Positions 10,164 to 52,125 of a stretch of DNA of 64,000 nucleotides are shown here, piece after piece. This DNA is from Bolinopsis microptera (Eukaryota; Ctenophora; Tentaculata; Lobata; Bolinopsidae). The stretch covers positions 436,001 through 500,000 of the forward strand of contig NC_087076.1 in the NCBI RefSeq assembly GCF_026151205.1, in the 5' to 3' direction. Below the pieces are notes generated by a model, which worked only from the letters and a program-made list of their open reading frames with translations, ran no database searches and was not told where the DNA came from. Within the stretch, counting starts at the first letter, position 1; every line of letters begins with the position of its first letter. A program made the translations under genes and the position numbers.

Positions 10164-10780
10164 TTGGTTGATTTTCTGCCTTGAACTTGAAGATTGTGTT
10201 ACAATCAAATCTATTGAATTAAGTTGTCTTAAATTAAATGTTATCAATTTCCTTTAGTATTGATCAAATAATAATTGAACATTTTTCCAGATCACAGTCA
10301 TGTTATATTGAATATTATGCGAGTTTGAAAGCGGGATTTAAAAGTACAGTTAAAATATTCAGCATAACATAATTCGCATGTTCAACATCGAGTTCAATAA
10401 TCAATGTACTGTTCTCAGGATAGTGTCTAAACTAGATTCAGAAATTGTATATGGTATAATTTGTAGCTTTGAAGAATACTTTACTAGTACATATTATTAT
10501 TATTATATTTCCGTCTTATTATATTAGTCTCATTGATTTTAGAAAAACTTGCGAATCATGTACTCCATTACTGATGAGGATAAAATATGAACAGTTGTTG
10601 TCTTATGATGTACATAATCATTTACTCCATCTTTATATTGTAAAATTTGGAGCTATAAATCGACTAATGAAGGAACAAAAGAAGGTCGGATGTACAGCAG
10701 CTTACAATGCCCACAATACTCGCACTCACTCTACCCTGCACTTCCATACTTGCCATCACTGACTTGTTCCTTTATTCGCC
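10164..10780. other. Divergent intergenic region (head-to-head genes)
   Basis: 617 bp separate the start of protein B (-) from the start of the trefoil/kringle receptor (+). The region probably carries both 5' UTRs and promoters. No clear TATA or other motif could be assigned. Confidence 0.45.
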
Positions 10781-19700: not shown

Positions 19701-22700
19701 GGAGTATCTACTGGAGTAGCAGGGAGGAGTATCTACTGGAGTAGCAGGGAGGAGTATCTACTGGAGTAGCAGGGAGGAGTATCTACTGGAGTAGCAGGGA
19801 GGAGTATCTACTGGAGTAGCAGGGAGGAGTATCTACTGGAGTAGCAGGGAGGAGTATCTACTGGAGTAGCAGGGAGGAGTATCTACTGGAGTAGCCGGGA
19901 GGAGTATCTACTGGAGTAGCAGGGAGGAGTATCTACTGGAGTAGCAGGGAGGAGTATCTACTGGAGTAGCAGGGAGGAGTATCTACTGGAGTAGCAGGGA
20001 GGAGTATCTACTGGAGTAGCAGGGAGGAGTATCTACTGGAGTAGCAGGGAGGAGTATCTACTGGAGTAGCAGGGAGGAGTATCTACTGGAGTAGCAGGGA
20101 GGAGTATCTACTGGAGTAGCAGGGAGGAGTATCTACTGGAGTAGCAGGGAGGAGTATCTACTGGAGTAGCAGGGAGGAGTATCTACTGGAGTAGCAGGGA
20201 GGAGTATCTACTGGAGTAGCAGGGAGGAGTATCTACTGGAGTAGCAGGGAGGAGTATCTACTGGAGTAGCAGGGAGGAGTATCTACTGGAGTAGCAGGGA
20301 GGAGTATCTACTGGAGTAGCAGGGAGGAGTATCTACTGGAGTAGCAGGGAGGAGTATCTACTGGAGTAGCAGGGAGGAGTATCTACTGGAGTAGCAGGGA
20401 GGAGTATCTACTGGAGTAGCAGGGAGGAGTATCTACTGGAGTAGCAGGGAGGAGTATCTACTGGAGTAGCAGGGAGGAGTATCTACTGGAGTAGCAGGGA
20501 GGAGTATCTACTGGAGTAGCAGGGAGGAGTATCTACTGGAGTAGCAGGGAGGAGTATCTACTGGAGTAGCAGGGAGGAGTATCTACTGGAGTAGCAGGGA
20601 GGAGTATCTACTGGAGTAGCAGGGAGGAGTATCTACTGGAGTAGCAGGGAGGAGTATCTACTGGAGTAGCAGGGAGGAGTATCTACTGGAGTAGCAGGGA
20701 GGAGTATCTACTGGAGTAGCAGGGAGGAGTATCTACTGGAGTAGCAGGGAGGAGTATCTACTGGAGTAGCAGGGAGGAGTATCTACTGGAGTAGCAGGGA
20801 GGAGTATCTACTGGAGTAGCAGGGAGGAGTATCTACTGGAGTAGCAGGGAGGAGTATCTACTGGAGTAGCAGGGAGGAGTATCTACTGGAGTAGCAGGGA
20901 GGAGTATCTACTGGAGTAGCAGGGAGGAGTATCTACTGGAGTAGCAGGGAGGAGTATCTACTGGAGTAGCAGGGAGGAGTATCTACTGGAGTAGCAGGGA
21001 GGAGTATCTACTGGAGTAGCAGGGAGGAGTATCTACTGGAGTAGCAGGGAGGAGTATCTACTGGAGTAGCAGGGAGGAGTATCTACTGGAGTAGCAGGGA
21101 GGAGTATCTACTGGAGTAGCAGGGAGGAGTATCTACTGGAGTAGCAGGGAGGAGTATCTACTGGAGTAGCAGGGAGGAGTATCTACTGGAGTAGCAGGGA
21201 GGAGTATCTACTGGAGTAGCAGGGAGGAGTATCTACTGGACTAGCAGGGAGGAGTATCTACTGGAGTAGCAGGGAGGAGTATCTACTGGAGTAGCAGGGA
21301 GGAGTATCTACTGGAGTAGCAGGGAGGAGTATCTACTGGAGTAGCAGGGAGGAGTATCTACTGGAGTAGCAGGGAGGAGTATCTACTGGAGTAGCAGGGA
21401 GGAGTATCTACTGGAGTAGCAGGGAGGAGTATCTACTGGAGTAGCAGGGAGGAGTATCTACTGGAGTAGCAGGGAGGAGTATCTACTGGAGTAGCAGGGA
21501 GGAGTATCTACTGGAGTAGCAGGGAGGAGTATCTACTGGAGTAGCAGGGAGGAGTATCTACTGGAGTAGCAGGGAGGAGTATCTACTGGACTAGCAGGGA
21601 GGAGTATCTACTGGAGTAGCAGGGAGGAGTATCTACTGGAGTAGCAGGGAGGAGTATCTACTGGAATAGCAGGGAGGAGTATCTACTGGAGTAGCAGGGA
21701 GGAGTATCTACTGGAGTAGCAGGGAGGAGTAACTACTGGAGTAGCAGGGAGGAGTATCTACTGGAGTAGCAGGGAGGAGTATCTACTGGAGTAGCAGGGA
21801 GGAGTATCTACTGGAGTAGCAGGGAGGAGTATCTACTGGAGTAGCAGGGAGGAGTATCTACTGGAGTAGCAGGGAGGAGTATCTACTGGAGTAGCAGGGA
21901 GGAGTATCTACTGGAGTAGCAGGGAGGAGTATCTACTGGAGTAGCAGGGAGGAGTATCTACTGGAGTAGCAGGGAGGAGTATCTACTGGAGTAGCAGGGA
22001 GGTGTATCTACTGGAGTAGCAGGGAGGAGTATCTACTGGAGTAGCAGGGAGGAGTATCTACTGGAGTAGCAGGGAGGAGTATCTACTGGAGTAGCAGGGA
22101 GGAGTATCTACTGGAGTAGCAGGGAGGAGTATCTACTGGAGTAGCAGGGAGGAGTATCTACTGGACTAGCAGGGAGGAGTATCTACTGGAGTAGCAGGGA
22201 GGGGTATCTACTGGAGTAGCAGGGAGGAGTATCTACTGGACTAGCAGGGAGGAGTATCTACTGGACTAGCAGGGAGGAGTATCTACTGGAGTAGCAGGGA
22301 GGAGTATCTACTGGAGTAGCAGGGAGGAGTATCTACTGGAGTAGCAGGGAGGAGTATCTACTGGAGTAGCAGGGAGGGGTATCTACTGGACTAGCAGGGA
22401 GGAGTATCTACTGGACTAGCAGGGAGGAGTATCTACTGGAGTAGCAGGGAGGAGTATCTACTGGAGTAGCAGGGACGAGTACTCAGTACATTTCTACAGT
22501 ACATATTATTGTACACCACTATATTATATAGATTAATTTCCACTAATTATAGATTCATTTCTCTCAGGAGTATACAAACCTAACAAGGAACCTAACAAAG
22601 AACTACTGTCGTAACCCAGGCAACCCTCCTAACAAGCAATTTCATGGACCGTGGTGTTTTACGGCAGACAACGTGTCACACACATGTAATGTGGCACCTT

Positions 22701-23119
22701 GCGGTCAGTACCTCACTAATGTCTCCTTCCCCTCTGGAAACACCATAGTAACTGGCACTGAGATATGTATCGATAAGAAAACATCAGACAGAACCGTTAA
22801 CCTAACCACTTGGTATGATTACGGTCCTGGTGCCCCAACTTGTGATGGAAACCAAACTCAATTGGTGCTCAAATTGGGAGAGGGTATTTTAGTATCTAAT
22901 GAGAATGAAGGACAGAAAAACTACGACAATTTCAGGAAGAAAATTTGGTACAAATACATATGGCTTGTAATGGGGAACTTTCAAATAATGGTGATCATCA
23001 ATCTTATCATTTATTGCAAGCAGCGGATCGTCAAGAATCTGGAGAGAGACAGAAAGCAAGAAAGGAATCAGGAAAACATTAACAAGGCCCTCAGTGCAAA
23101 AGAAAACAAACATTATTAA
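10781..23119 (+). CDS. Type I membrane protein: trefoil, Ig, FN3-like, kringle, short cytoplasmic tail
   Basis: Eight exons: 10781-11607, 11763-12327, 12486-13324, 13431-13572, 16642-16876, 18165-18361, 18541-18636 and 22568-23119. They total 3453 nt, 1150 residues, all GT-AG with matching phases. Seen in order: signal peptide (MLCYIFLALLLHHIHA); a trefoil domain at about 53-95 (KKCGWPG...C...GCCFKDD.CYRP, six cysteines); an Ig-like region ending GKYTCKV near 310; a clearer Ig domain (LQCYGYGSPPEAEPTWSIDG to GRYLCELDNGAG) from about 475; about three FN3-like domains to residue 910; a kringle at 939-1012 split across exons 7 and 8 (C939, C960, C981, C997, C1007, C1012, with NYCRNPG and PWCFT); a membrane segment near 1098-1117; and a basic tail of about 33 residues. 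There is no kinase. It is probably a cell-surface receptor or adhesion protein. I know no named family with this combination. Many NxT/NxS sites fit an ectodomain. Confidence 0.9.
14205..14365. repeat. 14-bp AT-rich tandem repeat
   Basis: About ten copies of CAAATACTAATTAT lie inside intron 4 of the trefoil/kringle gene. A CT-rich run lies upstream at about 13872-13891. Confidence 0.9.
14455..16217. repeat. 33-bp minisatellite, about 53 copies
   Basis: The unit contains GACGGCACGTACTACAGACA followed by GTCTACAGTACTA (33 bp). It fills much of intron 4 of the trefoil/kringle gene. Most copies are identical; a few have GGTACG, CTTACT or AGAGGG variants. Because 33 is a multiple of three, a frame of about 387 codons (LDGTYYRQSTV repeats) stays open on the plus strand. 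It lies inside an intron and is treated as an artefact. Confidence 0.97.
16975..18004. mobile_element. Pogo/Tigger-like MITE carrying a minisatellite
   Basis: The left end CAGTAGAACCTCTATAAACC matches the reverse complement of the right end (CAGTCAAACCTCTATATACC), 16 of 20, and TA flanks both ends. These are the hallmarks of pogo/Tigger-type Tc1/mariner elements. The interior is almost wholly the 18-bp array at 17047-17812. No transposase is present. It sits in intron 5 of the trefoil/kringle gene. Confidence 0.7.
17047..17812. repeat. 18-bp minisatellite, about 42 copies
   Basis: The unit is CTCCCCCACTAGTAGTAC with rare CTCCCCCACTAGTAGTAT variants. On the minus strand it keeps a frame of VGEVLL repeats open; this is an artefact of the 18-bp period. 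Confidence 0.97.
18678..22480. repeat. 25-bp minisatellite, about 152 copies (3.8 kb)
   Basis: The unit contains GTATCTACTGGAGTAGCAGG followed by GAGGA (25 bp). It occupies most of intron 7, beginning about 40 bp after the donor that splits the kringle domain. Copies are nearly identical; scattered variants (GGAGTAACT, GGACTAGC, AGCCGG) become denser towards the 3' end after about 21600. Confidence 0.97.
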
Positions 23120-33926: not shown

Positions 33927-36900
33927 TCAGTTTATGATTTTGGCTTCGGGTAAGAATTCCTTCCAGTGTCCAACAATCTGAAAGGAAGTATTTTTATATC
34001 GGTTGTTTGAAGAATATAATGAGAGAAATACTGAAATTAGATTTCTTGAAACATTAAACAATGCAACCAAACTTTCGACAGTATTTTTAGACGCTGATTT
34101 CGAATAACTCTACGAGTGGTCACACAGACTAATTTAAGGGTGAGGGTAAGTGTTGTGGTCATACTACAGGCTAATTTAGGGGTGAGGGTAAGTGTTGTGG
34201 TCACACTACATACTAATTTAGGGGTGAGGGTAAGAGTTGTGATCACACTACAGACTAATTTAGGGTGAGGGTAAGTGTTGTGGTCACACTACAGACTAAT
34301 TTAGGGTGAGGGTAAGTGTTGTGGTCACACTACAGACTAATTTAGGGTGAGGGTAAGTGTTGTGGTCACACTACAGACTAATTTAGGGTGAGGGTAAGTG
34401 TTGTGGTCACACTACAGACTAATTTAGGGGTGAGGGTAAGTGTTGTGGTCACACTACAGACTAATTTAGGGTGAGGGTAAGTGTTGTGGTCACACTACAG
34501 ACTAATTTAGGGTGAGGGTAAGTGTTGTGGTCACACTACAGACTAATTTAGGGTGAGGGTAAGTGTTGTGGTCACACTACAGACTAATTTAGGGTGAGGG
34601 TAAGTGTTGTGGTCACACTACAGACTAATTTAGGGTGAGGGTAAGTGTTGTGGTCACACTACAGACTAATTTAGGGATGAGGGTAAGAGTTGTGGTCATA
34701 CTACAGGCTAATTTAGGGTGAGGGTAAGAGTTGTGGTCACACTACATACTAATTTAGGGGTGAAGGTAAGTGTTGTGCTCATACTACAGACTAATTTAGG
34801 GGTGAGGGTAAGAGTTGTGGTCACACTACAGACTAATTTAGGGTGAGGGTAAGTGTTGTGGTCACACTACAGACTTATTTAGGGGTGAGGGTAAGAGTTG
34901 TGGTCATACTAGAGGCTAATTTAGAGGTGAGGGTAAGTGTTGAGGAACTTTTTCCGTGCAGTGGATATTTCATCCACAGATTGTGGATTTTTCAAGTTTT
35001 ACGCCTCTGGCTATTTCGTTTTAAACCATGATGCAGACGCTGCCATGTTTTTTGAAGGCCCTATAACCCGGGTGTATGAAGACAGGAAACTTATCAAAGA
35101 CGGTACAAAATTGAGGGTCATCAAACTTAGAGCCAGAAGTTGTATTTGTTGATTGGATGTTCCAGCTTATAATTTTGGTTTGAGTTTGGCGTGCATTCCT
35201 CTGTCTGATAGATAGAGATTATCGCGGATTTCTGCTCAGAAGTGGACTGTGTTTCCGTTTAGTAGGGGGCAAGAGACAGTGGCGTAACGTTGCCTGTTGG
35301 CGCCCCCGCCGAAAAAGCGCCCCCCTGTTGGCGCCCCTCCCCTTTTGGTGCCCCTCCCTAAAATTAAACCAATTAGTTGATTTTAGAGGATACGCCGGTT
35401 AAAAAAAAGTGTGTATCTAGAGCAAAACGCGAGGTCAGCGGGGTCCTTCGTTACGCCACTGGCAAGAGATGACCATTCTGGTGGTGGGAGATACTCGTTC
35501 TAGCATTTCGTCAAAGATCTTGAAGTTGTCGACGGTTCTGAGAATGTCCTCTCCTTTGTGTATGTCATTGACGCCGAGATGTACATAATATATTAGTTGA
35601 GGTTTCTCTTTTGATATTTGGCTCCCCATGTTTTCTCCGGTCAGTGATTCACTACATGTTTCATCTGATATGATTTCGAAAAGAGCTAATTTAGCCGCTG
35701 CTGAGCACATTTCACCGGTCAAAGTATTTTGTTCAGAATCTAAGAATGAATCGATACCCAAATTTCAAGGCTCAAACTCTTTCGGGTGCTGCGTGGAAAT
35801 TATGTGACCCGTCCTGGCATCCTGCCAAGGACTACAATATCTACCCAGCTAGTAAACCAGGTCCGACCTGCTGTGCAGTGTGTACGAGAACAGTCAGCAT
35901 GCTGATTACACGACTACTGCCCGCCAGGGAATTAACTTAGTAACTAACGTAACCGTTCTGTTACCGAAACTTATCCGCCTTTTTTTCGGGACACCCAGAA
36001 ATCAGTATCCATTAACAGTTGTGTATATTTGATATTAACAGTTGTTATTTTTGCGATGGCTTGAATACATAGTATCGGGCTTGCGCGCGCGAGAATGGGA
36101 TTACGCGCGCGAGATTGCGCGCTTTGCGCTACGAGAAGGATACTCTTATCATTTCTAACGCATCGCTTGCTACGACAGTAGATGAATCCATAAATTTGGA
36201 ACATGGGCACATCGCAGTATTGGCCGTATTTGAGTGCTGGGAAGGCTCAGTTCGGTTTTCTAAGATGGATATAGCCGTAAGCTAGGCCGAGGAGCCATCA
36301 AAAGTCGTATAAAATTACCCATGGAATGACCAGAAATGAACGAAAATGAACATTCACCTCAAAGTGCTCAGAATGGTTTAAAATTGGTCGTAAAGAGTAA
36401 ATAGTGGTCCTAGGACCACTTAAACCAAGTTTGGGAATCACTGCATGTCTAGAACCGATGTTACCATTGTTCCTACCTACCTATTGGTGTTCCAATTTTG
36501 TCACAATAATCCTACTTAGTATCCAGAGTTTTGGAACATGGGGACATAGAAGTTTTGGCTGTAATTGCTTTCCAGCACTGAAATACAGCCAATACTTGGA
36601 GTCCAAAAAATGGTTCCCAAAATCTGGATACTCAGGATGATTATTAGGACAAAATTGAAACATTTTGGAACAATGGTTACATCGGTTCTAGACATGCAGT
36701 GACACACTTGGCTGGAGTCATCCTACACAAACTCGTTCCGACCAATTTGAACCATTCTGAGCACTTTTGGGAGAATTTTCGTTCATTTCCGTTCATTCCA
36801 TGAACCTGGATCATTTTGTGCGACTTTTGATGGCCACTAGGCATAGCTTACAACTATATCCATCATTTACAATTATTTTTGGCATCATTCATGGCTTATT

Positions 36901-39900
36901 AGGGGAAATAAACGCATGTCCCACTTTTGTCCCTGGTTCCAATTTGGTTTTAAAAATCCGGATTCATCAACTCTACAACTGTAAAATCCAGATTGAAATA
37001 TTATTCATGAGTCGCATAGTTGAAATGTTTTCTTGGTTAAATTTCTATTGATCCCGTTTGAAGCGACAAGGAAAAGGCTCTTATCAGGAAAGGAATTATT
37101 CAACTTTTCTATGTGACAACATCGTATTCATGATCTCAAATTATTTGTTATATAATCATAGTAATGTTGAAAGTATTAAAACACTTTTTAAATTTTAATA
37201 CTTATTTTTCCTTGTCGCATCAAACTATCAAACGGGATCAATCGAAATTTACCCAAGAAAACAACATTGTAGCCAATTCAGAGAGCTGCACGTACGTTAC
37301 AATATTTATAATTGTAGAATTTGTAACGGTAATCCTCCAGAAGTATCACTACGAAGTACTAATCACATTTACTATTTATTAATAGGTACTGAGATATTAG
37401 TAACCTTGTAGTACATGTTCCACCTACCCGGTAACATGGCTACAGGGATAAAGAAATGTAACGCACCTGTTTCTGACAGTCAATAGTTTTCTGGAAGTAC
37501 GCGGTAACTGCTTCCTTCACTTCTCTTACCCAAACTTCCTGAACACGGTTTACTTTAAACAATGAATTATTTGTTCAATTGAAGTTTACCGTGAATAATT
37601 ATTAAAGTATTAAGTTCATTAAAGTTCATTAAGTTATTAATAGTACTAAGTTAAATAGATCCACAGTTTGCATACCTCAAATATTCTGATTTCGTCTTTC
37701 AAATTTTTGCTGATAAGTTCAAAATCTTCCTGACACTTCTCCACTTTGCCTTCCCACTGGAAAATACGCAAATTGAACACGAGCTCAACAATCTATTTAT
37801 TAAATATTAATAACACAGTTGAAAACGGTTTTTGTTGAATGCCTAGACGAGACTAGAAATTACCTAGACCAAGAGAAAATAGGTATAGTTACAGTATAGT
37901 TACTGTATAGTTACTGTATAGTTACTGTATAGTTACTGTATAGTTACTGTATAGTTACTGTATAGTTACTGTATAGTTACTGTATAGTTACTGTATAGTT
38001 ACCGGATAGTTACCGTATAGTTACCGTATAGTTACCGTATAGTTACCGTATAGTTACTGTATAGTTACTGTATAGTTACTGTATAGTTACTGTATAGTTA
38101 CTGTATAGTTACTGTATAGTTACTGTATAGTTACTGTATAGTTACTGAATAGTTACTGTATAGTTACTGTATAGTTACTGTATAGTTACTGTATAGTTAC
38201 TGTATAGTTACTGTATAGTTACTGTATAGTTACTGTATAGTTACTGTATAGTTACTGTATAGTTACCGGATAGTTACCGTATAGTTACCGTATAGTTACT
38301 GTATAGTTACTGTATAGTTACTGTATAGTTACTGTATAGTTACTGTATAGTTACTGTATAGTTACTGTATAGTTACTGTATAGTTACTGTATAGTTACTG
38401 TTTAGTTACTGTATAGTTACTGTATAGTTACTGTATAGTTACTGTATAGTTACTGTATAGATACCGTATAGTTACTGTATAGTTACTGTATAGTTTGACT
38501 CACAAATTTAATATCCTCCTCACATTGGGCTACTCTATCAGCTCTCCCCTGAGCAGTAGCTTTATTTTTAGCTTCTCTCTTCTTGGCTAGTGTCGACTGG
38601 GCTGATTCCCATGTGGAAAATATTTTCACTCTCTCGTCAAATGCAGCCTAGGAAATGTTAAATGGGTTGTTATTAGTAGTAGTATAGTAGTAGTATTAGC
38701 AATACAGTATCTGTTAGTAGTAGTAGTAGTAGTATTAGCAATACAGTATCTGTTAGTAGTAGTAGTAGTAGTATTAGCAATACAGTATCTGTTATTTGAT
38801 CAAATACATTATAAAATATTATAGGTTCTTAAAATAATAGCATAAGCCATAAACCCCATAAAATCACGTCATCAAATAGAGGGGTAAAAATAACACGATA
38901 TCTTCGTTACTTGATATTTGTCTGTGAATATATTTCCCGTAAAATAACCACCTTAGCAGATTGGATGATAGAAATGTAGTCTTTTATAGTCTCTCCAAAA
39001 GTGAATAAATCGTTGTCTGATTGCTCAACGTGAACCGCTTCCATCTTTGTTTCCAGTTCGGATAGTTTTGTTACAGCACGTCGTAACGAGGCGTTATCTT
39101 CTCCTTCCCCTGGACAGTATTAATATAAACAATTAACATTAAACTAATTAACATTACACTAATTAACATTACACTAATTGACATTAAACTAAGTAACATT
39201 TAACAAATTAACATTACGTACACTAATTAACATTACGCTAATTTACATTACGCTAATTAACATTACGCTAATTAACATTACGCTAATTAACATTACGCTA
39301 ATTAACATTACGCTAATTAACATTACGCTAATTAACATTACGCTAATTAACATTACTCTAATTAACATTACACTAATTAACATTACACTAATTGACATTA
39401 AACTTATTAACATTAAACTAATTTACATTTAACAAATTAACATAACACTAATTAACATTACGCTAATTAACATTACGCTAATTAACATTACGCTAATTAA
39501 CATTACGCTAATTAACATTACGCTAATTAACATTACGCTAATTAACATTAAACTAATTAATATTACACTTCATAGAGGCTAAACACCCGTGTACTTATAA
39601 GCTTTGGGAGGTTTTAACAACTAACATTTTTATTTAATTGCCCTTTTCTGTAAATTATAATTTTTGAGAATTTGTTTTGATGAAAGTACAAATTTGAATC
39701 ATTCTTCAAATATCGAATGTTTTGTTGTTATTTTCCCTTGTTTTGTTATTTTGCTTTTAGTATTATGTTATATTATGTTGATATTTGTTTTGATTTGTTC
39801 TTTTGTGATATTTTTAATTATTTCTCGTTGTTTTATCTTTGCATAAGTTATATATATTTTTTGGTGTTCAGTAAAGTTTAAAACAGTAACTAAATTTATT

Positions 39901-42900
39901 CAGGAATATATTTAATGTAGTTTGAGGAGTCCTCACTCTCCTCACGTCCGACAATGGCGTTTCTCTTGTCACTAATATAGGGGGGGGGGGTGTCACTAAT
40001 ATAAGGGGGGGGGGGGAGGGGGTGTCACTAATATAATGGGGGGGGGGGGTGTCACTAATATAAGGGGGGGTGTCACTAATATAAGGGGGGGGGGGGGTGT
40101 CACTAATATAATTGGGGGGGTGTCACTAAATATAAGGGGGGGTGTCACTAATATAAGGGGGGGGGGGTGTCACTAATATAAGGGGGGGGTTGGGGTTGTT
40201 CTGGAGCAGAACACGGTAAATAGATTAAGAAACTTTACACTGTCAAAGTGTACAGTGTACAGTGGGTACACAAGTCTTGTAACCTTGAAACTCTAAACCA
40301 CAAGATATAAAGATAAGTGTCAGGTGACGAATAATGTGCAATGTAAAACATTTACATCCGATAACAGTGCAGAGTAAGAGTAAACAACTAGCAGCCATCT
40401 TACCTAGATGTAAACAACTAGCAGCCATCTTACCTAGATGTAAACAACTAGCAGCCATCTTACCTAGATGTAAACAACTAGCAGCCATCTTACCTAGATG
40501 TAAACAACTAGCAGCCATCTTACCTAGATGTAAACAACTAGCAGCCATCTTACCTAGATGTAAACAACTAGCAGCCATCTTACCTAGATGTAAACAACTA
40601 GCAGCCATCTTACCTAGATGTAAACAACTAGCAGCCATCTTACCTAGATGTAAACAACTAGCAGCCATCTTACCTAGATGTAAACAACTAGCAGCCATCT
40701 TACCTAGATGTAAACAACTAGCAGCCATCTTACCTAGATGTAAACAACTAGCAGCCATCTTACCTAGATGTAAACAACTAGCAGCCATCTTACCTAGATG
40801 TAAACAACTAGCAGCCATCTTACCTGGATGTAAACAACTAGCAGCCATCTTACCTGGATGTAAACAACTAGCAGCCATCTTACCTAGATGTAAACAACTA
40901 GCAGCCATCTTACCTAGATGTAAACAACTAGCAGCCATCTTACCTAGATGTAAACAACTAGCAGCCATCTTACCTAGATGTAAACAACTAGCAGCCATCT
41001 TACCTAGATGTAAACAACTAGCAGCCATCTTACCTAGATGTAAACAACTAGCAGCCATCTTACCTAGATGTAAACAACTAGCAGCCATCTTACCTAGATG
41101 TAAACAACTAGCAGCCATCTTACCTAGATGTAAACAACTAGCAGCCATCTTACCTAGATGTAAACAACTAGCAGCCATCTTACCTAGATGTAAACAACTA
41201 GCAGCCATCTTACCTAGATGTAAACAACTAGCAGCCATCTTACCTAGATGTAAACAACTAGCAGCCATCTTACCTAGATGTAAACAACTAGCAGCCATCT
41301 TACCTAGATGTAAACAACTAGCAGCCATCTTACCTAGATGTAAACAACTAGCAGCCATCTTACCTAGATGTAAACAACTAGCAGCCATCTTACCTAGATG
41401 TAAACAACTAGCAGCCATCTTACCTAGATGTAAACAACTAGCAGCCATCTTACCTATATGTAAACAACTAGCAGCCATCTTACCTAGATGTAAACAACTA
41501 GCAGCCATCTTACCTAGATGTAAACAACTAGCAGCCATCTTACCTAGATGTAAACAACTAGCAGCCATCTTACCTAGATGTAAACAACTAGCAGCCATCT
41601 TACCTAGATGTAAACAACTAGCAGCCATCTTACCTAGATGTAAACAACTAGCAGCCATCTTACCTAGATGTAAACAACTAGCAGCCATCTTACCTAGATG
41701 TAAACAACTAGCAGCCATCTTACCTAGATGTAAACAACTAGCAGCCATGGCACCAGACTTGTTAGCAAGGTCTCTTCTGTTGCCTACCATGTTATCAACC
41801 ACCACCAACAGTTTCTTTAGGGTCTCTTCAAGCTCTGAGGTGGTTATGCTGTATAGTTACCGTATAGTTACCGTATAGTTACCGTATAGTTACTGTATAG
41901 TTACTGTATAGTTACTGTATAGTTACCGTATAGTTACTGTATAGTTACTGTATAGTTACCGTATAGTTACTGTATAGTTACTGTATAGTTACCGTATAGT
42001 TACTGTATAGCTACCGTATAGTCACTGTTTAGTTACTGTATAGTTACTGTATAGTTACTGTATAGTTACTGTATAGATACCGTATAGTTACTGTATAGAT
42101 ACCGTATAGATACCGTATAGATACCGTATAATTACTGTATAGTTACTGTATAGCTACCGTATAGTTACTGTATAGATACCGTATAGCTACCGTATATTAT
42201 AATTACCGTATAGTTACTGTATAGTTACTATATTATATAGTGTATAGTTACTGTATAGTTACCCAATATGTGTTGTTGCTTATCTTCATACCACTCATCT
42301 ACCTCGTTAATCCTTGCCGTTACTTTAGATACCATACTCTCCATGTTCTTCATAAAACCTGAAATATTACACGCCATTATATACTACTAATGTTACATGC
42401 CATTATAGTGAACATTCTGCATAGCTAACATTCTCCTCACAGTAATAAAGCTCTATGAGGCGTATATAGTATACTATATATACCTATATATAGTATACTA
42501 GTATATCATGTGTCAAATAAATATATAAATAATAAATAAATATAAATAATAATTTCCAAGGTGACTGTCTATCCGGCTGTCTGTTCACCCTTGTCTTGGC
42601 TGGTGCTTTGAATGAACTTAGATGGACTATAACAATCAGTTTAGATAGGCCGATCCCCCCGATTACTATTGCTGGCCTTCCACTTGACACTGAATATGCT
42701 GATGATGTTGACTTCAATGATGAAGAGGAAGACAACTTGAGAGCTATTTTGCCCCAGGCAACAGCTATACTTGAGAAATGGAACCTCTTTGTCAATGAAG
42801 ACAAAACGGACTTCACTCATGTTTATTTAGCTAGTACGGGTGAAGTCGACAGTGATGGAAAATTAGTGTCGGGGAATGAAGCATGGAGGAAAAGTATCAC

Positions 42901-45900
42901 TCTAGGGTCCGTCTTGTGTAGCAAAGCTGATATTCAGCGTCGCATAAACCTGGGATATGCTGCCTTTAACAATTACAAGAAGGCCTGGAGTGATAAACTG
43001 CCCCTAAACAAACGTCTAATACTGTACAATGCTTTAGTCGTATCGGTTCTTATGTACAACTCATCCTGTTGGGCCGTCCCCAAGATATTCCTTGAAAAAC
43101 TAGATGTTGTTCACCGCAGACATCTTCGCACTATTTTGAATATAAAGTACCCAGGAGTCATCTCCAACAAAAACTTGTATAAACGCTGCAATGCTGAACC
43201 ATTGTCAGAAAAAGTGGCCCGTAGTCGGTGGAGAATGTTAGGACATATACATGTTTTGCGGGGTCCTATTGACGGACCAGCGTTTTCTTCCCTCATTTTT
43301 GCCATCAATACACTGGACTTACCAGGGAGAAGAGGAAGACCCCAAAGCAATCTATTCTCGCTGATTGTGCATGATTTATGTAAAAGAAATATTTATTTGA
43401 ATAATATCTTTGACCTGCATTATCTCCGTAATTTGAGTTATGACAAGAGATATTGGCGGAAATTGCAATGAAGTTTTTAATTTTTAGTTTTTGTTTTAGG
43501 GAAAGATTAGACTTGGGCGTTGTTTTTTAACTATCCCTTGTTTAGAACTTTGATTTAATAATAATGATAAATATACCTCGTGTCAAAGTGTAAGATGAAA
43601 TTATTTTATGAATAATGAACTTTAGTTCAGCTTTATGAATTATGCCCTTAGTGTTAACCTAGTGTACCCTAGTGTTAGCCTAGTAAGTGTTTACCTAGTA
43701 AGTGTTTACCTTTGATGCCTGAAGCGTTAGGATTAGGTCGTGGGGGATCTTCTTCTTGCATGAATCGTCTCAGAGTTTCGTCCTTGCAGATAAGATAGTG
43801 CCCCATCAACCTCTTCAGATACCTACACAGAAGATGTATTCAAGAATTCAAGTATTATGACGTCACAATGACCAGGACCGGGTCCAAACTATAATGTTTT
43901 ATTGCAGACTGTCCCTTCTCATCCAGTAAGCCCCTTAAGGGGGCCGGGGGGGGGTCTTCATCAAAATTATCTCGAAATTGATTTTATAGTTGTTTCTGAT
44001 AGAGGGGAGTGATATCTATCAGCTACTTTTGGTCCCATGGAAAAATATTGTTCCTAGCCGAAATTATCGCTGGTCAAAGGTCAGCGCTCATGTGTAATTG
44101 TATTGCGCGAGCGATTTTCAATCGCGCGTCCTGAAAATCGAGTCTAAAAATCTATCTTCTCCTATATTTGTTGAGCAATCACCCTGAAACTTTCAGGATA
44201 TGTTCTAAGGATCATTTAGAAGAGAAGTATCGAGCCGAATTTTGAGATAGGCCTCAGAAAATTTTTAATTCGATTTTGAAAATCTTGGACCTCATTTTTT
44301 GACGATTTTTCCAGGTCCAAGATTTTCAAAATCGATTTAAACATTTTCTGAGGCCTATCTCAAAATTCGGCTCGATAATTCTCTTCTAAATGATCCCTAG
44401 AACATATCCTGAAAGTTTCAGGGTGATTGCTCAAAAAATGTAGGAGAAGATAGATTTTTAGACTCGATTTTCAGGATGCGCGATTAAAAATCGCTCGCGC
44501 AATACAATTACACATGAGCGCTGACCTTTGACCAGCGATAATTTCGGCTAGGAACAATATTTTTCCATGGGACCAAAAGCAGCTGATAGATATCACTCCC
44601 CTCTATCAGAAACAATTATAAAATCAATTTCGAGAGAATTTTGATGAAGACCCGTACCCCCCCCCCCCGGCCCCCTTAAGTTAACCCTTTCCCCCAATAA
44701 CAATGAGCTCACCTCTCTGCCTGTATAGTTACTGTATAGTTACTGTATAGTTATTGTATAGTTATATTTACTGTATAGTTACTGTATAGTTACTGTATAG
44801 TTATTGTATAGTTACTGTATAGTTACTGTATAGTTACTGTATAGTTACTGTATAGTTACTGTATAGTTACTGTATAGTTACTGTATAGTTACTGTATAGT
44901 TACTGTATAGTTACTGTATAGTTACTGTATAGTTACTGTATAGTTACTGTATAGTTACTGTATAGTTACTGTATAGTTACTGTATAGTTACTGTATAGTT
45001 ACTGTATAGTTACTGTATAGTTACTGTATAGTTACTGTATAGTTACTGTATAGTTACTGTATAGTTACTGTATAGTTACTGTATAGTTACTGTATAGTTA
45101 CTGTATAGTTACTGTATAGTTACTGTATAGTTACTGTATAGTTACTGTATAGTTACTGTATAGTTACTGTATAATTACTGTATAGTTACTGTATAGTTAC
45201 TGTATAATTACTGTATAGTTACTGTATAGTTACTGTATAGTTACTGTATAGTTACTGTATAGTTACTGTATAGTTACTGTATAGTTACTGTATAGTTACT
45301 GTATAGTTACTGTATAGTTACTGTATAGTTACTGTATAGTTACTGTATAGTTACTGTATAGTTACTGTATAGTTACTGTATAGTTACTGTATAGTTACTG
45401 TATAGTTACTGTATAATTACTTTATAGTTACTGTATAGTTACTGTATAATTACTGTATAGTTACTGTATAGTTACTGTATAATTACTGTATAGTTACTGT
45501 ATAGTAACTGTATAGTTACTGTATAGTTACTGTATAGTTACTGTATAGTTACTGTATAGTTACTGTATAGTTACTGTATAATTACTGTATAGTTACTGTA
45601 TAATTACTGTATAGTTACTGTATAGTTACTGTATAGTTACTGTATAATTACTGTATAGTTACTGTATAGTTACTGTATAGTTACTGTTTAGTTACTGTAT
45701 AGTTACTGTATAGTGTATAGTTACTGTATAGTTACTGTATAGTTACTGTATAGTTACTGTATAGTTACTGTATAGTTACTGTATAGTTACTGTATAGTTA
45801 CTGTATAGTTACTGTATAGTTACTGTATAGTTACTGTATAGTTACTGTATAGTTACTGTATAGTTACTGTATAGTTACTGTATAGTTACTGTATAGTTAC

Positions 45901-48900
45901 TGTATAGTTACTGTATAGTTACTGTATAGTTACTGTATAGTTACTGTATAGTTACTGTATAGTTACTGTATAGTTACTGTATAGTTACTGTATAGTTACT
46001 GTATAGTTACTGTATAGTTACTGTATAGTTACTGTATAGTTACTGTATAGTTACTGTATAGTTACTGTATAATTACTGTATAGTTACTGTATAGTTACTG
46101 TATAATTACTGTATAATTACTGTATAGTTACTGTATAGTTACTGTATAGTTACTGTATAGTTACTGTATAGTTACTGTATAGTTACTGTATAATTACTGT
46201 ATAGTTACTGTATAGTTACTGTATAGTTACTGTATAGTTACTGTATAGTTACTGTATAGTTACTGTATAGTTACTGTATAGTTACTGTATAGTTACTGTA
46301 TAGTTACTGTATAATTACTGTATAGTTACTGTATAGTTACTGTATAGTTACTGTATAGTTACTGTATAGTTACTGTATAATTACTGTATAGTTACTGTAT
46401 AGTTACTGTATAGTTACTGTATAGTTACTGTATAGTTACTGTATAGTTACTGTATAGTTACTGTATAGTTACTGTATAGTTACTGTATAGTTACTGTATA
46501 GTTACTGTATAGTTACTGTATAGTTACTGTATAGTTACTGTATAGTTACTGTATAGTTACTGTATAGTTACTGTATAGTTACTGTATAGTTACTGTATAG
46601 TTACTGTATAGTTACTGTATAATTACTGTATAGTTACTGTATAGTTACTGTATAGTTACTGTATAGTTACTGTATAGTTACTGTATAGTTACTGTATAGT
46701 TACTGTATAGTTACTGTATAGTTACTGTATAGTTACTGTATAGTTACTGTATAGTTACTGTATAGTTACTGTATAGTTACTGTATAGTTACTGTATAGTT
46801 ACTGTATTGTTACTGTATAGTCACTGTTTAGTTACTGTATAGTTACTGTATAGTTACTGTATAGTTACTGTATAGTTACTGTATAGTTACCTCTCTAGAG
46901 CTGCTTTTCTCCTCCTAATAAAGTGACTCTGATCCTCAGCGGACTGGTTGTTTCCTCCGAACCTCACTTTAGCAGTTCCCATGAAGTTCTTCTCCGGAGC
47001 TGGAGGAACTATTACACCGCGAGGTAAGTAGTTCTCTATTAGAAGCTGGTGCAGAACTACAAAATCACTGAACCGCCGCTGTACTGTCGTCTCTGGACTC
47101 GCCTCAGACTGTGTGGTAAGTACTTATATTTACTCAGGTATAGAGCTTCAATACTTGTTATTAAGTGTTATTACTTTCATGATCTCCAAAGTTATTACTG
47201 GATGATAAGTATTAACGGCCAGGTAGCGCAGTTGGTTATTCATCGGATTTGTAATCGTGAGGTTGCGAGTTCGAAACCCACTGCCTGCCTAGTCGTGGGG
47301 TGAGTGTCGTCGACATTCAGCTAAAGATCCTGAGTGGTCTATGCAGCCCCCCGGTCTACTCAGCCGAATATTCGAGAAATCGTGTGTGAGGGTTAAATGA
47401 GGAGCTGTCCATTGCAGCGAAGTCTCGGGCGAAAAAGTATGGTACACACTACCTTAACCGTCACTGGCCTAATTAAATCCTTCGGCTTCCTGTAATTGGC
47501 TAGTTATACTTGTGTAACAATGTGGCTGTTGGAATACTCCGAAGTAAAATAAGTGTGAGATTTAAAAAATTATCTTAAATAATAATCTCAATAAATCTGT
47601 GTGTGTGTGTGTGTGTGTGTGTGTGAGTGTGCGGGAGATTTCCGAGCGGTTAAATACAGGGTGGGCCAAAAGTCAGTACCCATACGTTGGCCTTAATAGC
47701 TCAGTCACTGAGTTCCCAATTGAAATAATTCTTTCTGGTATGACTTACTACCACCACTGGTTCGAGGAATTTGTCAAATCGAAAAATATTCGTGTTCATT
47801 TTTTAAAAATTGAGGTTCATTTTCGCATTTATTTGATAGTTTGGATAGTCGGATCGAGCCAAATTTTATTGAATTGTGTTTGGCCATCCGAATTACGTTT
47901 GTCCTGAAAAAATGAGAGCTGTAACTTCTCAGATCACCGAGATACGAATCATAACGAGTTTATTCATTACGTGTGATCAGGTGATTGATTAACCTAATCA
48001 CGTGATAAGGTGACCCCGTTAACCACCCCGTTAAACATTATGGGAATTGTTAAGGCTGCCCAATTAAGGTGTCGTGTCGTGGTGTCACATAATCACCCAG
48101 TCAATTTTGCTAACGAGATGCACAAAATGCTTGATAACTTCGTCATTTCTAATCCGTTTTGCCTCATTTTTTCAGATCAGATGCAACATTTAATAATCTA
48201 CCGTCTTTGAAAAAATTTGGCGTTCAGCGTGTTCAGAGAGAACAATATAGGTGTTTTAATATTGAATGGGCGTGGTTTAAAATATTCGAATTTTCAAATT
48301 TTGGCGACGGAATCCTCGAACAAGTAGGTACAGTATGCCATCTGCAAAGCAACAACTCTCAAATATAAAACACAGCGGAGGTATAAGACCCAACGTATGG
48401 GTACTGACTTTTGGCCCACCCTGTATAAATTTTCGAGCGGTTAAATATTTTTAAAACGGTAAGAGTTACGGGACTGGTTTTTTCGGTATAGTGCCGACAA
48501 AACTCTGACGAAGCCATTAAGCAAATTTTTTTTCAAAATCGGCCGGTGGTAAGTGGTTTAATTGATGGTTTTGTACCACTAATACGACATAAAATGGCTC
48601 ACTTTTTCTCCCTCTTCGCTCTCTCTTCCATTACTGCATATTATGTAGCGTTGGTACATGAATCATAATTAGGTTAAGCCAGGTAAGATTCGTTGTCATG
48701 TAATACTATAAGCCTATTAGGGGAGGGGACACTCATTGCTTCATTGGGGTCTGTTTGGACTGCAGAGAGAGTTCATACTTTCATACGACAATGTTATGCG
48801 TGTTTTCAAATAGGCGGGTGTGGTGCGGAGTTAACAAGGGTTAATTTCTAAAACGATTTAAATAAAAATGGAGAGCGGTTCAAACGGAAGTGATGAGGTG

Positions 48901-51900
48901 TAATAGTCAGTGTACGGCCACGGACCAGTTGTCAGTAGTCAGTAGTCAGTAGTCAGTTCTCAGTTGTCAGTTCTCAGTAATCAACTTACTCATAAATGAG
49001 GATTCTGTCGGCAAAATTAGTAAATTCGATTGTTGAAAGCCATGCCCTTTCAACATTAAATTGCCTACACTCGTTTTGTTTAGGTGGTATGGCTTATACT
49101 CGTCTCGTCTTGTTACCATGACAAAATTTCATACTTGGCGAACATGCTAGACATTTTGATTTCAAAAAGCCGCATTTGATTCTATCAAAAGGTAGTTTAT
49201 TTGGGCGAGCATGAGACACTCAGAATCAGGGGTGTAGGAAGCGGGGGGACACTCAGAATCTCTCGTGCGCTCTTTAATGGAACCATGAGTTAAGGCTGAT
49301 GGTTATTATATTGGTTTTCTGTTGACTTGGCTCGGGCACTGATCCTCTCATGTTTCTAGCCGTGATGATACAGGGTGTAGTGTTGTAATATTGGGTAAAC
49401 TCACCGTTGCTTGGATTGTGTACACTATGTAACTATTGTAACCCTCGCCTGAAAGTTACAATTACATTAGAATATATTATTATCAAAATATATAAATATC
49501 CGTTCACTATTTTGTAATTAGTATTTGTTAGTGCCTAAAAGCGACAACCAATCACCAAAAATCGTTCAGCAATTGGTTTTGCAATTTTCTAAGAGTAGGT
49601 TTTTTTTAAAAAGAGAGGCTGGGCCTGGGTGGCCCACGAGAGGATAGCATGTGAATGCTTTGCATACCTCTGGGGTATGGCAGTCCTATGGGAGGATGCC
49701 GGGGGAATCAGAATGTGTAATGTAGGATGATGGTAAGTGTTGTAAGATGTGTCGTGTATGAATGCTTAAGTGGCAGCTGGGTGTGGAAGAGAAAGGTGAA
49801 CTAAGACGATGTGTGAGTAGTCGCTATGTCACACCGGTCTGGTCCAGCTCCTCTGGCACAATTAAGCGTTTGGTGCGGTTTGCGAAGTTGACAATAATGG
49901 AGATGTGTTGGTTGTCGAATATGTCATTGACGGAGAGGTAATAGTCCTGGAAATATTGACCTCTTATTTAAGCAATAGCCGAACACTGTCTTAGAAAGTA
50001 TGAGACAGTTTCCTCTCCGTCGCCGCACATAGGACAAGTACTGGTGCTTGATTTGCGAATGGTATGGAGGTGTTTGTTTAAGCCACAATGTCGGACCGTG
50101 ACACTGTAGCTCTGTAATTTTGTCTGTTGTTGCTGAGTGTAGTGTTAAGATTTTTGATGATGTTGATGCGTTTGTGACGGAGTGTCAGTTTGGTGTGTCT
50201 GGGACCATCAGTTAACCAGGTTTCCTGATTTAGTCTGGTGACTTTGTCGTCGATCAGGCGTTTGATGTAAGATTGTGGAATTGGGCACTTCAAAGTGGAT
50301 TTACTGGTTGTACCAGTCTTGGCCAGCTCATCTGCTTTTTCATTACCCCACAATCCGATGTGTACAGCTATCCATCGGATCTCTATAGTGTAAGTGGATC
50401 CGAGTGCATTGAGGGTGTCATAACAGTCTCTTAGTAGTTCTACTCCTCGTTAAGAGCGAGGATATAGCTTGTATAAAGGAGAGACTGTCAGACCATTATA
50501 TGATGATGTGTGTTGGTATAAGTTGAGAGATATTTGCAAGCTTCGATGATGGCGGTGAGCTCTGTTTGATAAACAGTAAAAGTAGGTCTGTTTTGAATTA
50601 AGAAGTCCCTCCTGGCAAGCCATAGATGAAATGCAGACTCTGGCAGTATCGGTCTGTGCCTCTAGAGGACTGTAAAGGGGGGGGGGGGGGGGACGTGTCT
50701 GTATATATTTTGAGATAGGTTTTTGTTGTAGAATGTAGAGGTGTAGTGGTGCCTACCACAAGCAATGTGATTGATTGTAAAGCTTTCCTGACCGGAATTA
50801 TGTTTCAAAAATTGTTTCCAAACTGCTATTTTGAAGTCCGAACAGAGGAGAAATTGTAACATTAAAAACAAAGGAACTACTAACCTATACGAGTAAAACT
50901 TGTTATTGCAATGTTGACCTTAACCTTTGACTTTTTGGTTTCCCCATTCACCTGCAGAAATAAATTAAGTTCAAAACATGTTTGAGAAACGACCACCATA
51001 GGGAATTTATTTTAAAACGATTTCACTACTTATTCATGAATGGATAAACCGGAACTCACAGCAGGCAAAGTTTCTGTTTTTTGAAGGTTCTGTTGAGCTG
51101 ACTCCTTGGCTGCATTTAGCAGAGCTGTAGTGCGTGCATCATCCAGTGCACACCCGACAGCAGGTGTGTTAAATGGGACCTGGTCGTGATCTGACAAAAG
51201 TATCGTTTCAATGCATCAAATTGATGTTCAACTAATGATGAATTACAAAAAAGGTGAGTTTTACAGCGGTTTGTAGTAAAGGAAATATTGACTTACACAC
51301 ATAGTAGAAAATGGCGAGCTACCAAATTTATATGAACGTGTCCAGAATAACCCGCTAATATCTAGCAATAAATGTTTTGAGAAAACAAAAAAACTGACCT
51401 GAATTCATGCGAACTGGAATAGCACCTTGCATATTGCTTTCAATTGTATCTTCGTCATCATCATCATCATCATCATCATCAAACAAATCACATTGCTGTG
51501 AGTTACCAGTAAACAAATCTTTGTCATCAATACCAGCAAGGTCATCTTTGTCATCCTTCTGATCATCCTCGTCAATGCCAAATATGTGTTCTTCCTTTGA
51601 GGCCTCCTCAAATATGTGTTCTTCCTTTGAGGCCTCCTCAAATATGTGTTCTTCCTTTGAGGCCTCCTCAAATATGTGTTCTTCCTTTGAGGCCTCCTCA
51701 AATATGTGTTCTTCCTTTGAGGCCTCCTCAAATATGTGTTCTTCCTTTGAGGCCTCCTCAAAAATGTGTTCTTTCTTTGAGGCCTCCTCTTCGACAGTGT
51801 TATCAAACAAATCTTCGCCTTCACTGACATCGTCAAAAAGATCACTTTCCGTATGAAGCGGTTTTTTTGCAATTTCAACTGTTTCTACAGTAGGATTTGC

Positions 51901-52125
51901 AAAGATATCTCCATCGTCATCACTGACATTTTCAAATATGTCATCAGCAGCTTTTGTAACCTCCTTTGGAGATTCCCCATCTATTTTCACCTCATCTATT
52001 TTCACCTCATCTATTTTCACCTCATCTATTTTCAACTCATCTGGAGTCTCTTTGTTTTCTTCCAATTCTTGCTTTTCTACCTCTTTGCTTTCAATATCAG
52101 CTGGTGCATCTTCTGTTGATTCCAT
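33927..52125 (-). CDS. SNX1/2: SNX1/SNX2 sorting nexin (retromer/ESCPE-1 PX-BAR protein)
   Basis: Thirteen exons on the minus strand: 52125-51399, 51190-51060, 50951-50885, 49448-49405, 47108-46891, 43822-43710, 42358-42263, 41834-41724, 39109-38952, 38647-38504, 37756-37676, 37538-37467 and 33977-33927. They total 2013 nt, 670 residues; every junction is GT-AG and phases agree. The N-terminus is acidic with DLF/DIF motifs and a ten-residue repeat (EEASKEEHIF). The PX domain is about 297-400 (NIAITSFTRIG, RRFSDFVVLHQLL, VPPAPEKNFMG, RRRKAALERYLKRL). The BAR domain is about 435-670 (KVTARINEVDEWYEDKQQ, ANKSGAMAAS, AAFDERVKIFSTWESAQSTL, AKKREAK), ending HWKEFLPEAKIIN. SNX1/2 dimerise with SNX5/6, bind endosomal phosphoinositides and drive tubule formation for retrograde sorting. 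It looks like the single pre-duplication orthologue. The exon 8 donor lies in a tandem array of donors (40381-41750). Confidence 0.93.
34120..34945. repeat. 41/42-bp minisatellite, about 20 copies
   Basis: The unit contains GGGTGAGGGTAAGTGTTGTG followed by GTCACACTACAGACTAATTTA. It is in intron 12 of the SNX gene, about 140 bp from the last exon. Copies alternate between GGGTGAGG and GGGGTGAGG and diverge at both ends. Confidence 0.95.
34950..35761 (-). mobile_element. CR1-like LINE fragment: SGNH esterase end of ORF1 and start of ORF2
   Basis: On the minus strand 35761-35462 reads as a SGNH-hydrolase-like segment (IYYVHLGVNDIHKGEDILRT, then FDEMLERVSPTTRMVIS), as found in ORF1 of CR1-type LINEs. 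A hAT MITE (35277-35461) interrupts it. Beyond the MITE come AEIRDNLYLSDRGMHAKLK, then SWNIQSTNTTSGSKFDDPQF, which resembles the start of an ORF2 endonuclease. Stops and frame breaks show it is dead. It lies in intron 12 of SNX, sense with the host gene. Confidence 0.65.
35277..35461. mobile_element. hAT-like MITE, 185 bp, perfect 8-bp target duplication
   Basis: Ends CAGTGGCGTAACG and CGTTACGCCACTG. GCAAGAGA directly flanks both sides (35269-35276 and 35462-35469). It is inserted in a LINE ORF1 fragment, so it is younger than that LINE. Confidence 0.92.
36267..36862. mobile_element. Foldback element, about 600 bp
   Basis: The left arm (TGGATATAGCCGTAAGCTAG, CATCAAAAGTCG, AAGTGCTCAGAATGGTT) is the imperfect complement of the right arm (AACCATTCTGAGCACTT, CGACTTTTGATGGCC, AACTATATCCA). 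The middle also folds (GGAACATGGGGACATAG; CCAAAACTCTGG-like pairs). No coding content. In SNX intron 12. Confidence 0.7.
37026..37263. mobile_element. Short foldback element in SNX intron 12
   Basis: TGTTTTCTTGGTTAAATTTC with TTGATCCCGTTTGA and CGACAAGGAAAA at left; the complement TTTTCCTTGTCG, TCAAACGGGATCAA, GAAATTTACCCAAGAAAACA at right. Arms about 50 bp. Confidence 0.75.
37884..38497. repeat. 11-bp minisatellite at the exon 10 donor of SNX, about 55 copies
   Basis: Unit TATAGTTACTG on the plus strand, GTAACTATACA in the transcript. The array starts within about eight bases of the exon 10 donor (GTGAGTCAAACTATACAG). Variants ACCG and CCGGA occur in blocks. Confidence 0.95.
38672..38790. 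repeat. 39-bp repeat, about three copies, AGT-rich
   Basis: Three copies of GTAGTAGTATTAGCAATACA with TATCTGTTAGTAG, with an internal variable TAG microsatellite. In SNX intron 9. Confidence 0.85.
39127..39570. repeat. 15-bp minisatellite upstream of SNX exon 9 acceptor
   Basis: About 29 copies of ATTAACATTACGCTA with variants (CACTA, AACTA). It starts about 18 bases from the exon 9 acceptor in intron 8. Confidence 0.95.
39976..40192. repeat. G-run repeat (GTGTCACTAATATAAG plus G7-G13)
   Basis: About nine copies of TGTCACTAATATAA separated by runs of 7-13 G on the plus strand (C runs in the SNX transcript). In SNX intron 8. Run lengths are prone to sequencing error. Confidence 0.9.
40381..41750 (-). 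repeat. 30-bp array of duplicated exon 8 end plus 5' splice site (SNX)
   Basis: About 45 copies of a 30-bp unit. In transcript orientation each begins GTAAGATGGCTGC and ends GTTTACATCTAG. The first donor-proximal copy overlaps exon 8 itself: the exon ends CTGCTAGTTGTTTACATCTAG with one unit's last bases, then GTAAGA. Each unit thus regenerates TAG|GTAAGA, a near-consensus 5' splice site. Two units have CATCCAG and one CATATAG instead of CATCTAG. With a 30-nt period and no stop, the frame stays open on this strand (GKMAASCLHL per unit). Confidence 0.95.
41850..42262. repeat. 11-bp minisatellite filling SNX intron 7
   Basis: The same TATAGTTACTG unit as at 37884 and 44723, more diverged (TACCG, GATACCG, GCTACCG variants). 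It begins at the first intron base of the exon 7 donor (GTAACTATACAG) and runs nearly to the exon 8 acceptor. Confidence 0.93.
42561..43650 (+). mobile_element. LINE reverse transcriptase C-terminal fragment in SNX intron 6
   Basis: The plus-strand frame starts GDCLSGCLFTLVLAGALN, has the YADD catalytic box (TEYADDVDFNDEE), then the thumb region and LYNALVVSVLMYNSSCWAV, and ends with SRWRMLGHIHVLRG and LPGRRGRPQSN. This is the standard LINE ORF2 tail (QGD.LS.LLF, YADD, LGH). It is 5'-truncated just before the QGD-like motif and antisense to SNX. A degenerate second copy of the 3' part is at 61316-61740. Confidence 0.88.
43935..44690. mobile_element. Large foldback (inverted-repeat) element, about 755 bp
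   Basis: Two arms of about 370 bp, nearly exact complements, meet around GACGATTTTTCCAGGTCC near 44310. Ends are GGGGGCCGGGGGGGG and CCCCCCCCCCGGCCCCC. Solo arms at 2286-2602 and 4164-4480 show that it is a family. It is in SNX intron 5, so the transcript could form a very long hairpin. Confidence 0.92.
44723..46890. repeat. 11-bp minisatellite at the exon 5 donor of SNX, about 197 copies
   Basis: Unit TATAGTTACTG (plus). In transcript orientation the intron begins GTAACTATACAGTAACTATA, so the first repeat unit is the splice donor itself. It is very homogeneous, with TATAATTAC the main variant. Confidence 0.97.
47213..47540 (+). mobile_element. tRNA-derived SINE in SNX intron 4
   Basis: The head carries a pol III A box (TAGCGCAGTTGG) and B box (GGTTGCGAGTTCGAAACC), about 35 bp apart, as in a tRNA. 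A putative anticodon loop TTTGTAA suggests tRNA-Thr(UGU) ancestry. A non-tRNA body of about 250 bp follows. The acceptor stem does not pair well, so it is not a working tRNA gene. The 3' boundary is approximate. Confidence 0.75.
47597..47625. repeat. (GT)n microsatellite
   Basis: About 14 GT units just after the SINE body. Confidence 0.95.
47657..48423. mobile_element. Mariner-like MITE, 767 bp
   Basis: Terminal inverted repeats of about 34 bp start CAGGGTGGGCCAAAAGTCAG at both ends, and TA flanks each side. No intact transposase. Partial relatives occur at 28640-29190, 52580-52850 and 57290-57515. In SNX intron 4. Confidence 0.88.
49600..50660 (-). mobile_element. LINE fragment with RNase H domain and zinc-knuckle-like end, SNX intron 3
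   Basis: On the minus strand: VYQTELTAIIEACKYL (RNase H glutamate region), then after frame breaks EIRWIAVHIGLWGNEKADEL with the typical G-N-E-KAD-LAK end of RNase H, then CPMCGDGEETVSYFLRQCSA near 50030. This order is known from I-type LINEs. Several frameshifts make it a relic. 49600-49980 is probably its 3' UTR. Confidence 0.82.
51550..51790 (-). repeat. 30-bp coding repeat in SNX exon 1
   Basis: Seven copies (six nearly identical) of a 30-bp unit containing AATATGTGTTCTTCCTTTGA (plus strand). They encode EEASKEEHIF repeats in the acidic N-terminal region. A 15-bp repeat (four copies, KIDEV) lies at about 51980-52040. Confidence 0.95.

Follow-up and report, generated by a model that had tools for sequence, protein, structure and literature searches.

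A tandem array of 45 donors at exon 8 of a sorting nexin gene in Bolinopsis microptera, and other minisatellites that begin at 5′ splice sites

The window, that is, the whole stretch of 64,000 nucleotides of Bolinopsis microptera contig C5 analysed here, contains an SNX1/2-like gene, the exons and arrays of which are listed in Table 1. Its 12 introns were located from the reading frame and identity to P0001, a public protein model named 'sorting nexin-2-like [Bolinopsis microptera]', and the spliced product (384 aa) is 100% identical over 100% to this protein; the closest relative after P0001 among the matches listed is a ctenophore protein, P0002 (identity, 88%). Exon 8 is of phase 1 at both ends and terminates in ATGGCTGCTAGTTGTTTACATCTAG, followed by the donor GTAAGA. 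The join of its first donor to the first base of exon 9 (39109) reads HLG/EGEDNASLRR (a slash marks a junction here and below), as had been proposed in a first-pass annotation of the window, and P0001 carries exactly this join, in agreement with the further proposal that the host gene works if the first donor is used. The coding minisatellite in exon 1 is absent from the relative P0002. In intron 6, an RT-like open frame (YADD, by eye) was observed antisense to the gene (42536-43471, plus strand).

Table 1. Positions of the gene, exons, first donor and tandem arrays (window coordinates unless indicated).
Feature	Position	Strand	Remarks
SNX1/2-like gene, 13 coding exons	52125..33930	(-)	exons read by identity to P0001
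Coding 30-bp x7 repeat EEASKEEHIF, SNX exon 1	51579..51789	(-)	TRF
SNX intron 5, 11-bp GTAACTATACA array x198	44721..46890	(-)	from the first base of the donor
SNX intron 6, short 15-bp repeat GTAAACACTTACTAG	43649..43709	(-)	at donor; 61 bp in total
SNX intron 7, 11-bp GTAACTATACA array	41849..42262	(-)	from donor (0 bp) to 14 bp before acceptor
SNX exon 8, 111 nt	41724..41834	(-)	phase and P0001 identity; last 25 nt, founder of the repeat
First donor of exon 8, GTAAGA	41718..41723	(-)	used by the public protein model P0001
30-bp x 45.6 minisatellite with 45 donors, TAG or CAG/GTAAGA	40380..41748	(-)	TRF, 99%
SNX exon 9	38952..39109	(-)	joined to first donor of exon 8
SNX intron 10, 11-bp GTAACTATACA array	37883..38495	(-)	begins 8 bp past donor
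PDE intron 14, 8-bp GTAACCAG array with exon-tail copies	C5:576086-576467 (140086-140467)		outside the window

The tandem units of the 30-bp array cross the exon 8/intron 8 boundary, each being composed of the final 25 nt of exon 8 (the number of repeated exon-side bases was measured directly) and GTAAG. When the minus strand is followed from exon 8 and each GTAAGA is scored, the donors number exactly 45 at a strict spacing of 30 bp, 43 of the type TAGGTAAGA (TAG/GTAAGA) and two of the type CAGGTAAGA (CAG/GTAAGA). Hence, the earlier description of about 45 in-frame 5′ splice sites, with a unit made of the end of exon 8 plus its donor, was borne out, except that TAG/GTAAGA had been ascribed to every unit. 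The extent then given (40381..41834) needs correction, since position 41748 within exon 8 is where the array begins and the part 41749-41834 is non-repeated exon sequence. Of the 44 complete units that separate the donors, 41 are identical and three have one change each. When the genome was searched for the unit with up to three mismatches, all 45 matches fell in the array, one of them being exon 8's own copy, with three mismatches. The coding frame through the array remains open for 529 codons up to a stop at 40245, the period being ten stop-free codons as noted before, and both remaining sense frames of the unit contain stops. The open frame alone is weak evidence, because a period of 30 bp is a multiple of three and needs just ten stop-free codons. 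In strength, the array donor ranks at the 76th percentile among the 45 mapped donors.

The copy within exon 8 is the founder, and the others are later copies, because the encoded segment MAASCLHLG aligns ungapped to FAKSLAMLG of SNX1 in the solved structures (7d6d and 8afz), and because P0002 reads AASCLHLGEGEDN at the position matching the end of exon 8. The gapless alignment of the exon-copy protein to SNX1 extends through MAASCLHLGEGEDN, which disposed of a suspicion, formed by eye, that the end of exon 8 has gained a few residues compared with SNX1. In a structure of P0001 predicted from 26 aligned sequences, the point at which the repeats would be inserted (residues 503/504 of the 670-residue protein) is located in the final turn of the first BAR helix (455-505), which is followed by a loop (506-508) and the second helix (509-587); the mean confidence is about 95 for residues 491-510 and 64.8 for the whole protein. 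Extra repeats, if translated, would thus enter where the first BAR helix ends, so that their earlier placement between the first and second helices was nearly right, the predicted junction lying in the last turn of helix one.

Further arrays are found in introns of the same gene (Table 1), three of which, in introns 5, 7, and 10, share the 11-bp unit GTAACTATACA. A 23-mer of this array has 191 matches in the genome, all on the same strand, 190 of them in the window and within SNX introns, and the variant units GTAACTATACG and GTATCTATACA are common to introns 7 and 10. Because these two introns share variant units, the pattern suggests that the 11-bp array has been copied from intron to intron (5, 7, and 10) within one gene. 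The commonest donor repeated in the 11-bp arrays is weak (9th percentile); a higher score is reached by the first donor of intron 5 and by that of intron 7, and roughly the level of these first donors is attained by a minority of the units in introns 7 and 10. We ruled out that intron 7 ends within its 11-bp array, the phase-consistent acceptor being located beyond the array. Elsewhere in the window, the longest array (25-bp x152; 99%; 18678-22481) lies in a different gene region, at no identifiable donor, and no array was seen at any donor of another window gene, whose exons were read by eye near 10763-13600 and 22553-23119.

A PDE5/11-like phosphodiesterase gene located ~80 kb further along was mapped with a relative from Mnemiopsis (P0121; identity, 89%), and in three of the 16 introns mapped (introns 3, 8, and 14) the array was counted as starting at the donor; one unplaceable junction and the part before residue 135 of P0121 were left out of these counts. 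The unit in intron 8 is 28 bp long and includes 17 exon-side bases. In intron 14, an exon tail of at least 28 nt together with the donor is followed by two further copies inside the intron among 8-bp repeats; this intron was scored as 0 bp through a TRF row of longer period, the 8-bp array proper starting 17 bp in. The tetranucleotide CCAG is common to the exon copy and the 8-bp array at the break. In addition, an open frame ending in ...RYNK on the minus strand (C5:534480-534660; window coordinates 98480-98660) runs into a 12-bp GTAACTGATAAG array (x36), a possible further donor-anchored array in an unmapped gene.

For a statistical evaluation of the array starts, the arrays of each intron (TRF score, >=50; period, >=6) were placed randomly within that intron 20,000 times. 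In the SNX and PDE genes together (28 introns, 20 with arrays), seven arrays start exactly at the donor (0 bp) against 0.16 expected, a number reached in none of the 20,000 placements, where arrays reaching into the exon are clipped to 0 bp and cannot be generated by random placement within the intron, and where SNX had been picked through the finding itself and PDE after donor-like arrays were noticed there. Within 10 bp of the donors, nine arrays were observed and 1.77 were expected. At the acceptors, the corresponding numbers are 0 versus 0.16 at 0 bp and 1 versus 1.78 within 10 bp. With stricter arrays (score, 100; period, 8), six start at the donor against 0.13 expected.

Because of the way in which SNX and PDE entered the sample, two myosin genes from a family search, one of class II (in L033) and one of class VI (in L034), were added, having been picked before their sequences were seen. 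Arrays are present in 9 of their 19 introns, among which three were placed by eye and one is a gap between alternative exons, with at least one intron per myosin remaining unmapped. One array starts exactly at the donor (0.07 expected; P, 0.065), two start within 1 bp (0.13 expected; P, 0.0066), and the same two within 5 bp (0.39 expected; P, 0.053), while three start within 10 bp (0.71 expected; P, 0.024) and within 20 bp (1.38 expected; P, 0.13); at the acceptors, there is no array within 10 bp and one within 20 bp. The myosin arrays near donors are short (2.0 to 2.6 copies, the two at donors having 2.0 and 2.2), and the donor-side signal in these two genes is weak. In a third myosin stretch (L035; 5 kb), which was kept outside the counts, an array adjoins a donor as judged by eye. 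The class II myosin also contains two adjacent similar exons (L033:3013-3205 and 3265-3487; FGNAKT...SSRFGKFIRIHF); separate splice sites belong to each of them, and the pair looks like mutually exclusive exons.

When the four genes were pooled (47 introns, 29 with arrays), eight arrays start at the donor against 0.22 expected and none at the acceptor. The excess is retained after removal of SNX intron 8 (7 versus 0.23 expected) or of the whole SNX gene, leaving PDE and the myosins (4 versus 0.13 expected). The possibility that arrays simply fill introns up to the signals at both ends is not supported, since the pooled acceptor counts from 0 to 40 bp are not above random beyond chance (for example, 6 versus 5.90 within 30 bp). 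Donor motifs as a general seed of minisatellites were rejected: among the 94 arrays of C5:336001-600000, such motifs (score, >=7) occur in 13, compared with 13.6 in dinucleotide shuffles of the arrays' own units. Donor-like words are about twice as frequent in these arrays as in non-array segments (13 versus 5.8). Since they do not exceed the shuffles, the excess concerns where arrays begin, and not minisatellite composition.

Minisatellite-like duplications of intron–exon boundaries, termed mirages, have been described in amphioxus. They are reported (PMC3087553, PMC3902484) for Adh3, the globins BflGb6 and BflGb9, TnC, and PGBD5, and splicing of the mirage genes is apparently regular. The unit measures 10-72 bp in Adh3, whereas that of BflGb6 measures 150-160 bp and is present 6 times in one haplotype and 3 times in another. 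Like these mirages, which may contain AG/GT signals, the SNX tandem units span an exon/intron boundary and carry such signals, and by structure the SNX array is best read as belonging to the mirage kind. It differs from them in its ctenophore host, in having 45 near-identical units versus 6 and 3 in the BflGb6 haplotypes, and in being one of several arrays in one Bolinopsis gene; moreover, the arrays of our four-gene sample are on the donor side only, whereas both boundaries are reported in amphioxus. Intron gain by tandem duplication of an AG/GT sequence (the Rogers model, cited in PMC3087553; also PMC4974935) is similar in that the duplicated SNX unit contains AG/GT, as in the model. In contrast to such intron gain, an existing SNX intron has been lengthened, with no new intron position shown.

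Alternative tandem 5′ splice sites are competing donors, and the SNX donors compete in frame in the same manner; here, however, the competitors number 45 and are near-identical, and the gene model uses the first alone. Intronic VNTR minisatellites have a short unit, a high copy number, and homogeneous copies, all of which apply to the SNX array, but unlike intronic VNTRs in general, it has a 5′ splice site at its start and is partly made of coding sequence. In the literature covered, mostly outside subscription papers, we found no report of such arrays in ctenophores or of many duplicated donors; the earlier statement that no described case with so many donors is known agrees with this, although the kind as such was already known from the amphioxus mirages. 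The SNX array is thus real and striking, a representative of an established type that turns up in a new setting and is surrounded by a wider pattern.

It is very probable that the SNX array is a near-neutral minisatellite of the mirage kind, in which the first donor is spliced and the others are lost with intron 8, and that it constitutes one case of a wider tendency by which minisatellites of this genome begin at donors. A tandem duplication would have involved the junction of exon 8 with intron 8 (25 exonic nt and GTAAG), and the units may have been expanded or homogenised recently through slippage or unequal exchange. The donor-containing duplicates would leave the first donor intact, and near-exclusive splicing of this exon-proximal donor would remove the remaining 44 within intron 8. 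First-donor use is inferred from the gene models and the proteins of relatives. With splicing at the first donor, the copies would become part of the intron and be harmless, so that the array would be free to grow and presumably is close to neutral. Frame-keeping does not appear to be required, because sister arrays have periods of 11, 28, and 53 bp; units that break the frame argue against selection for frame. On the other hand, in mammalian assays with duplicated donors, the site nearer the intron is reportedly often preferred; by this rule the repeats would be included, which counts against use of the first donor.

Such inclusion would be the basis of an isoform ladder, put forward in the first-pass annotation, in which several donors are used and 10 x (n-1) residues are added, here where the first BAR helix ends. 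The 45 donors are near-equal in strength, in frame, and free of stops, and their rank among the mapped donors is compatible with use. We nevertheless consider the ladder improbable. A database query lengthened by 20 residues (two units) matched P0001 and P0002 alone (E <= 0.001), neither with the insert, which is a weak test because the P0001 cluster consists of one ncbi/uniref member and the database is seemingly devoid of transcripts of the species for SNX. The insertion point (residue 503) belongs to the final turn of a BAR helix predicted with confidence, and the frame-breaking periods at other donors speak against the ladder as well as against any special function of the array, which had also been suggested. 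Recursive splicing, by which the AG/GT juxtaposed at the unit boundaries would allow stepwise removal of intron 8 with the donor remade each time and the same mRNA produced, is in keeping with the common unit junction (...TTTACATCTAG/GTAAGA), where a 3′ site directly abuts a 5′ site. However, the unit's AG has a score of 4.4, which places it at the 16th percentile of the 44 acceptors mapped, and among 2,574 AGs within introns 18.3% do as well, so that this route is judged very improbable.

Slightly less probable still is a regulatory array, for example a local U1 snRNP sink that would prevent polyadenylation from occurring too early or adjust the level of SNX expression. As many as 45 good donors within 1.3 kb would suit such a role, but in the 11-bp arrays nearby, including the two that likewise begin at donors, most of the donor matches are weak, and a shared U1-binding role is therefore unlikely. 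As to the assembly, tandem arrays are prone to errors and the copy number could be wrong; yet the array runs on without a break from the exon copy, a search of the 264.65-Mb genome detected no match to the unit elsewhere, and the three internal variant units are at distinct places, so that a misplaced or inflated array appears the least probable of these explanations.

Going beyond the single array, it is conceivable, although we hold this tentatively and at less than even confidence, that minisatellites in Bolinopsis preferentially arise or come to a stop at 5′ splice sites, the arrays reaching the first base of the intron and not the acceptors, being tolerated since the spliceosome takes the first of identical donors, and being copied between introns. 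If genome-wide, the donor-side excess would implicate a process of mutation or tolerance linked to 5′ splice sites, and the amphioxus phenomenon would then extend to ctenophores. Studies of how the spliceosome selects one of several equal 5′ splice sites usually employ a small number of engineered sites; the SNX gene is a natural one with 45 near-identical donors, of which the model uses the first, and junction reads could accordingly test a first-come or exon-definition rule.

The genomic background of arrays is uneven. Tandem arrays make up 40.2% of C5:336001-600000 (264 kb), compared with 10.5, 1.4, 4.9, and 7.2% of single 10-kb samples from four other chromosomes and 1.8 and 24.3% of the two myosin stretches. 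For another ctenophore, Hormiphora californensis, 13% tandem repeats by TRF are reported (PMC8527503). The array-rich 264 kb is located near one end of a 23.6-Mb contig, and its richness possibly represents subtelomeric clustering.
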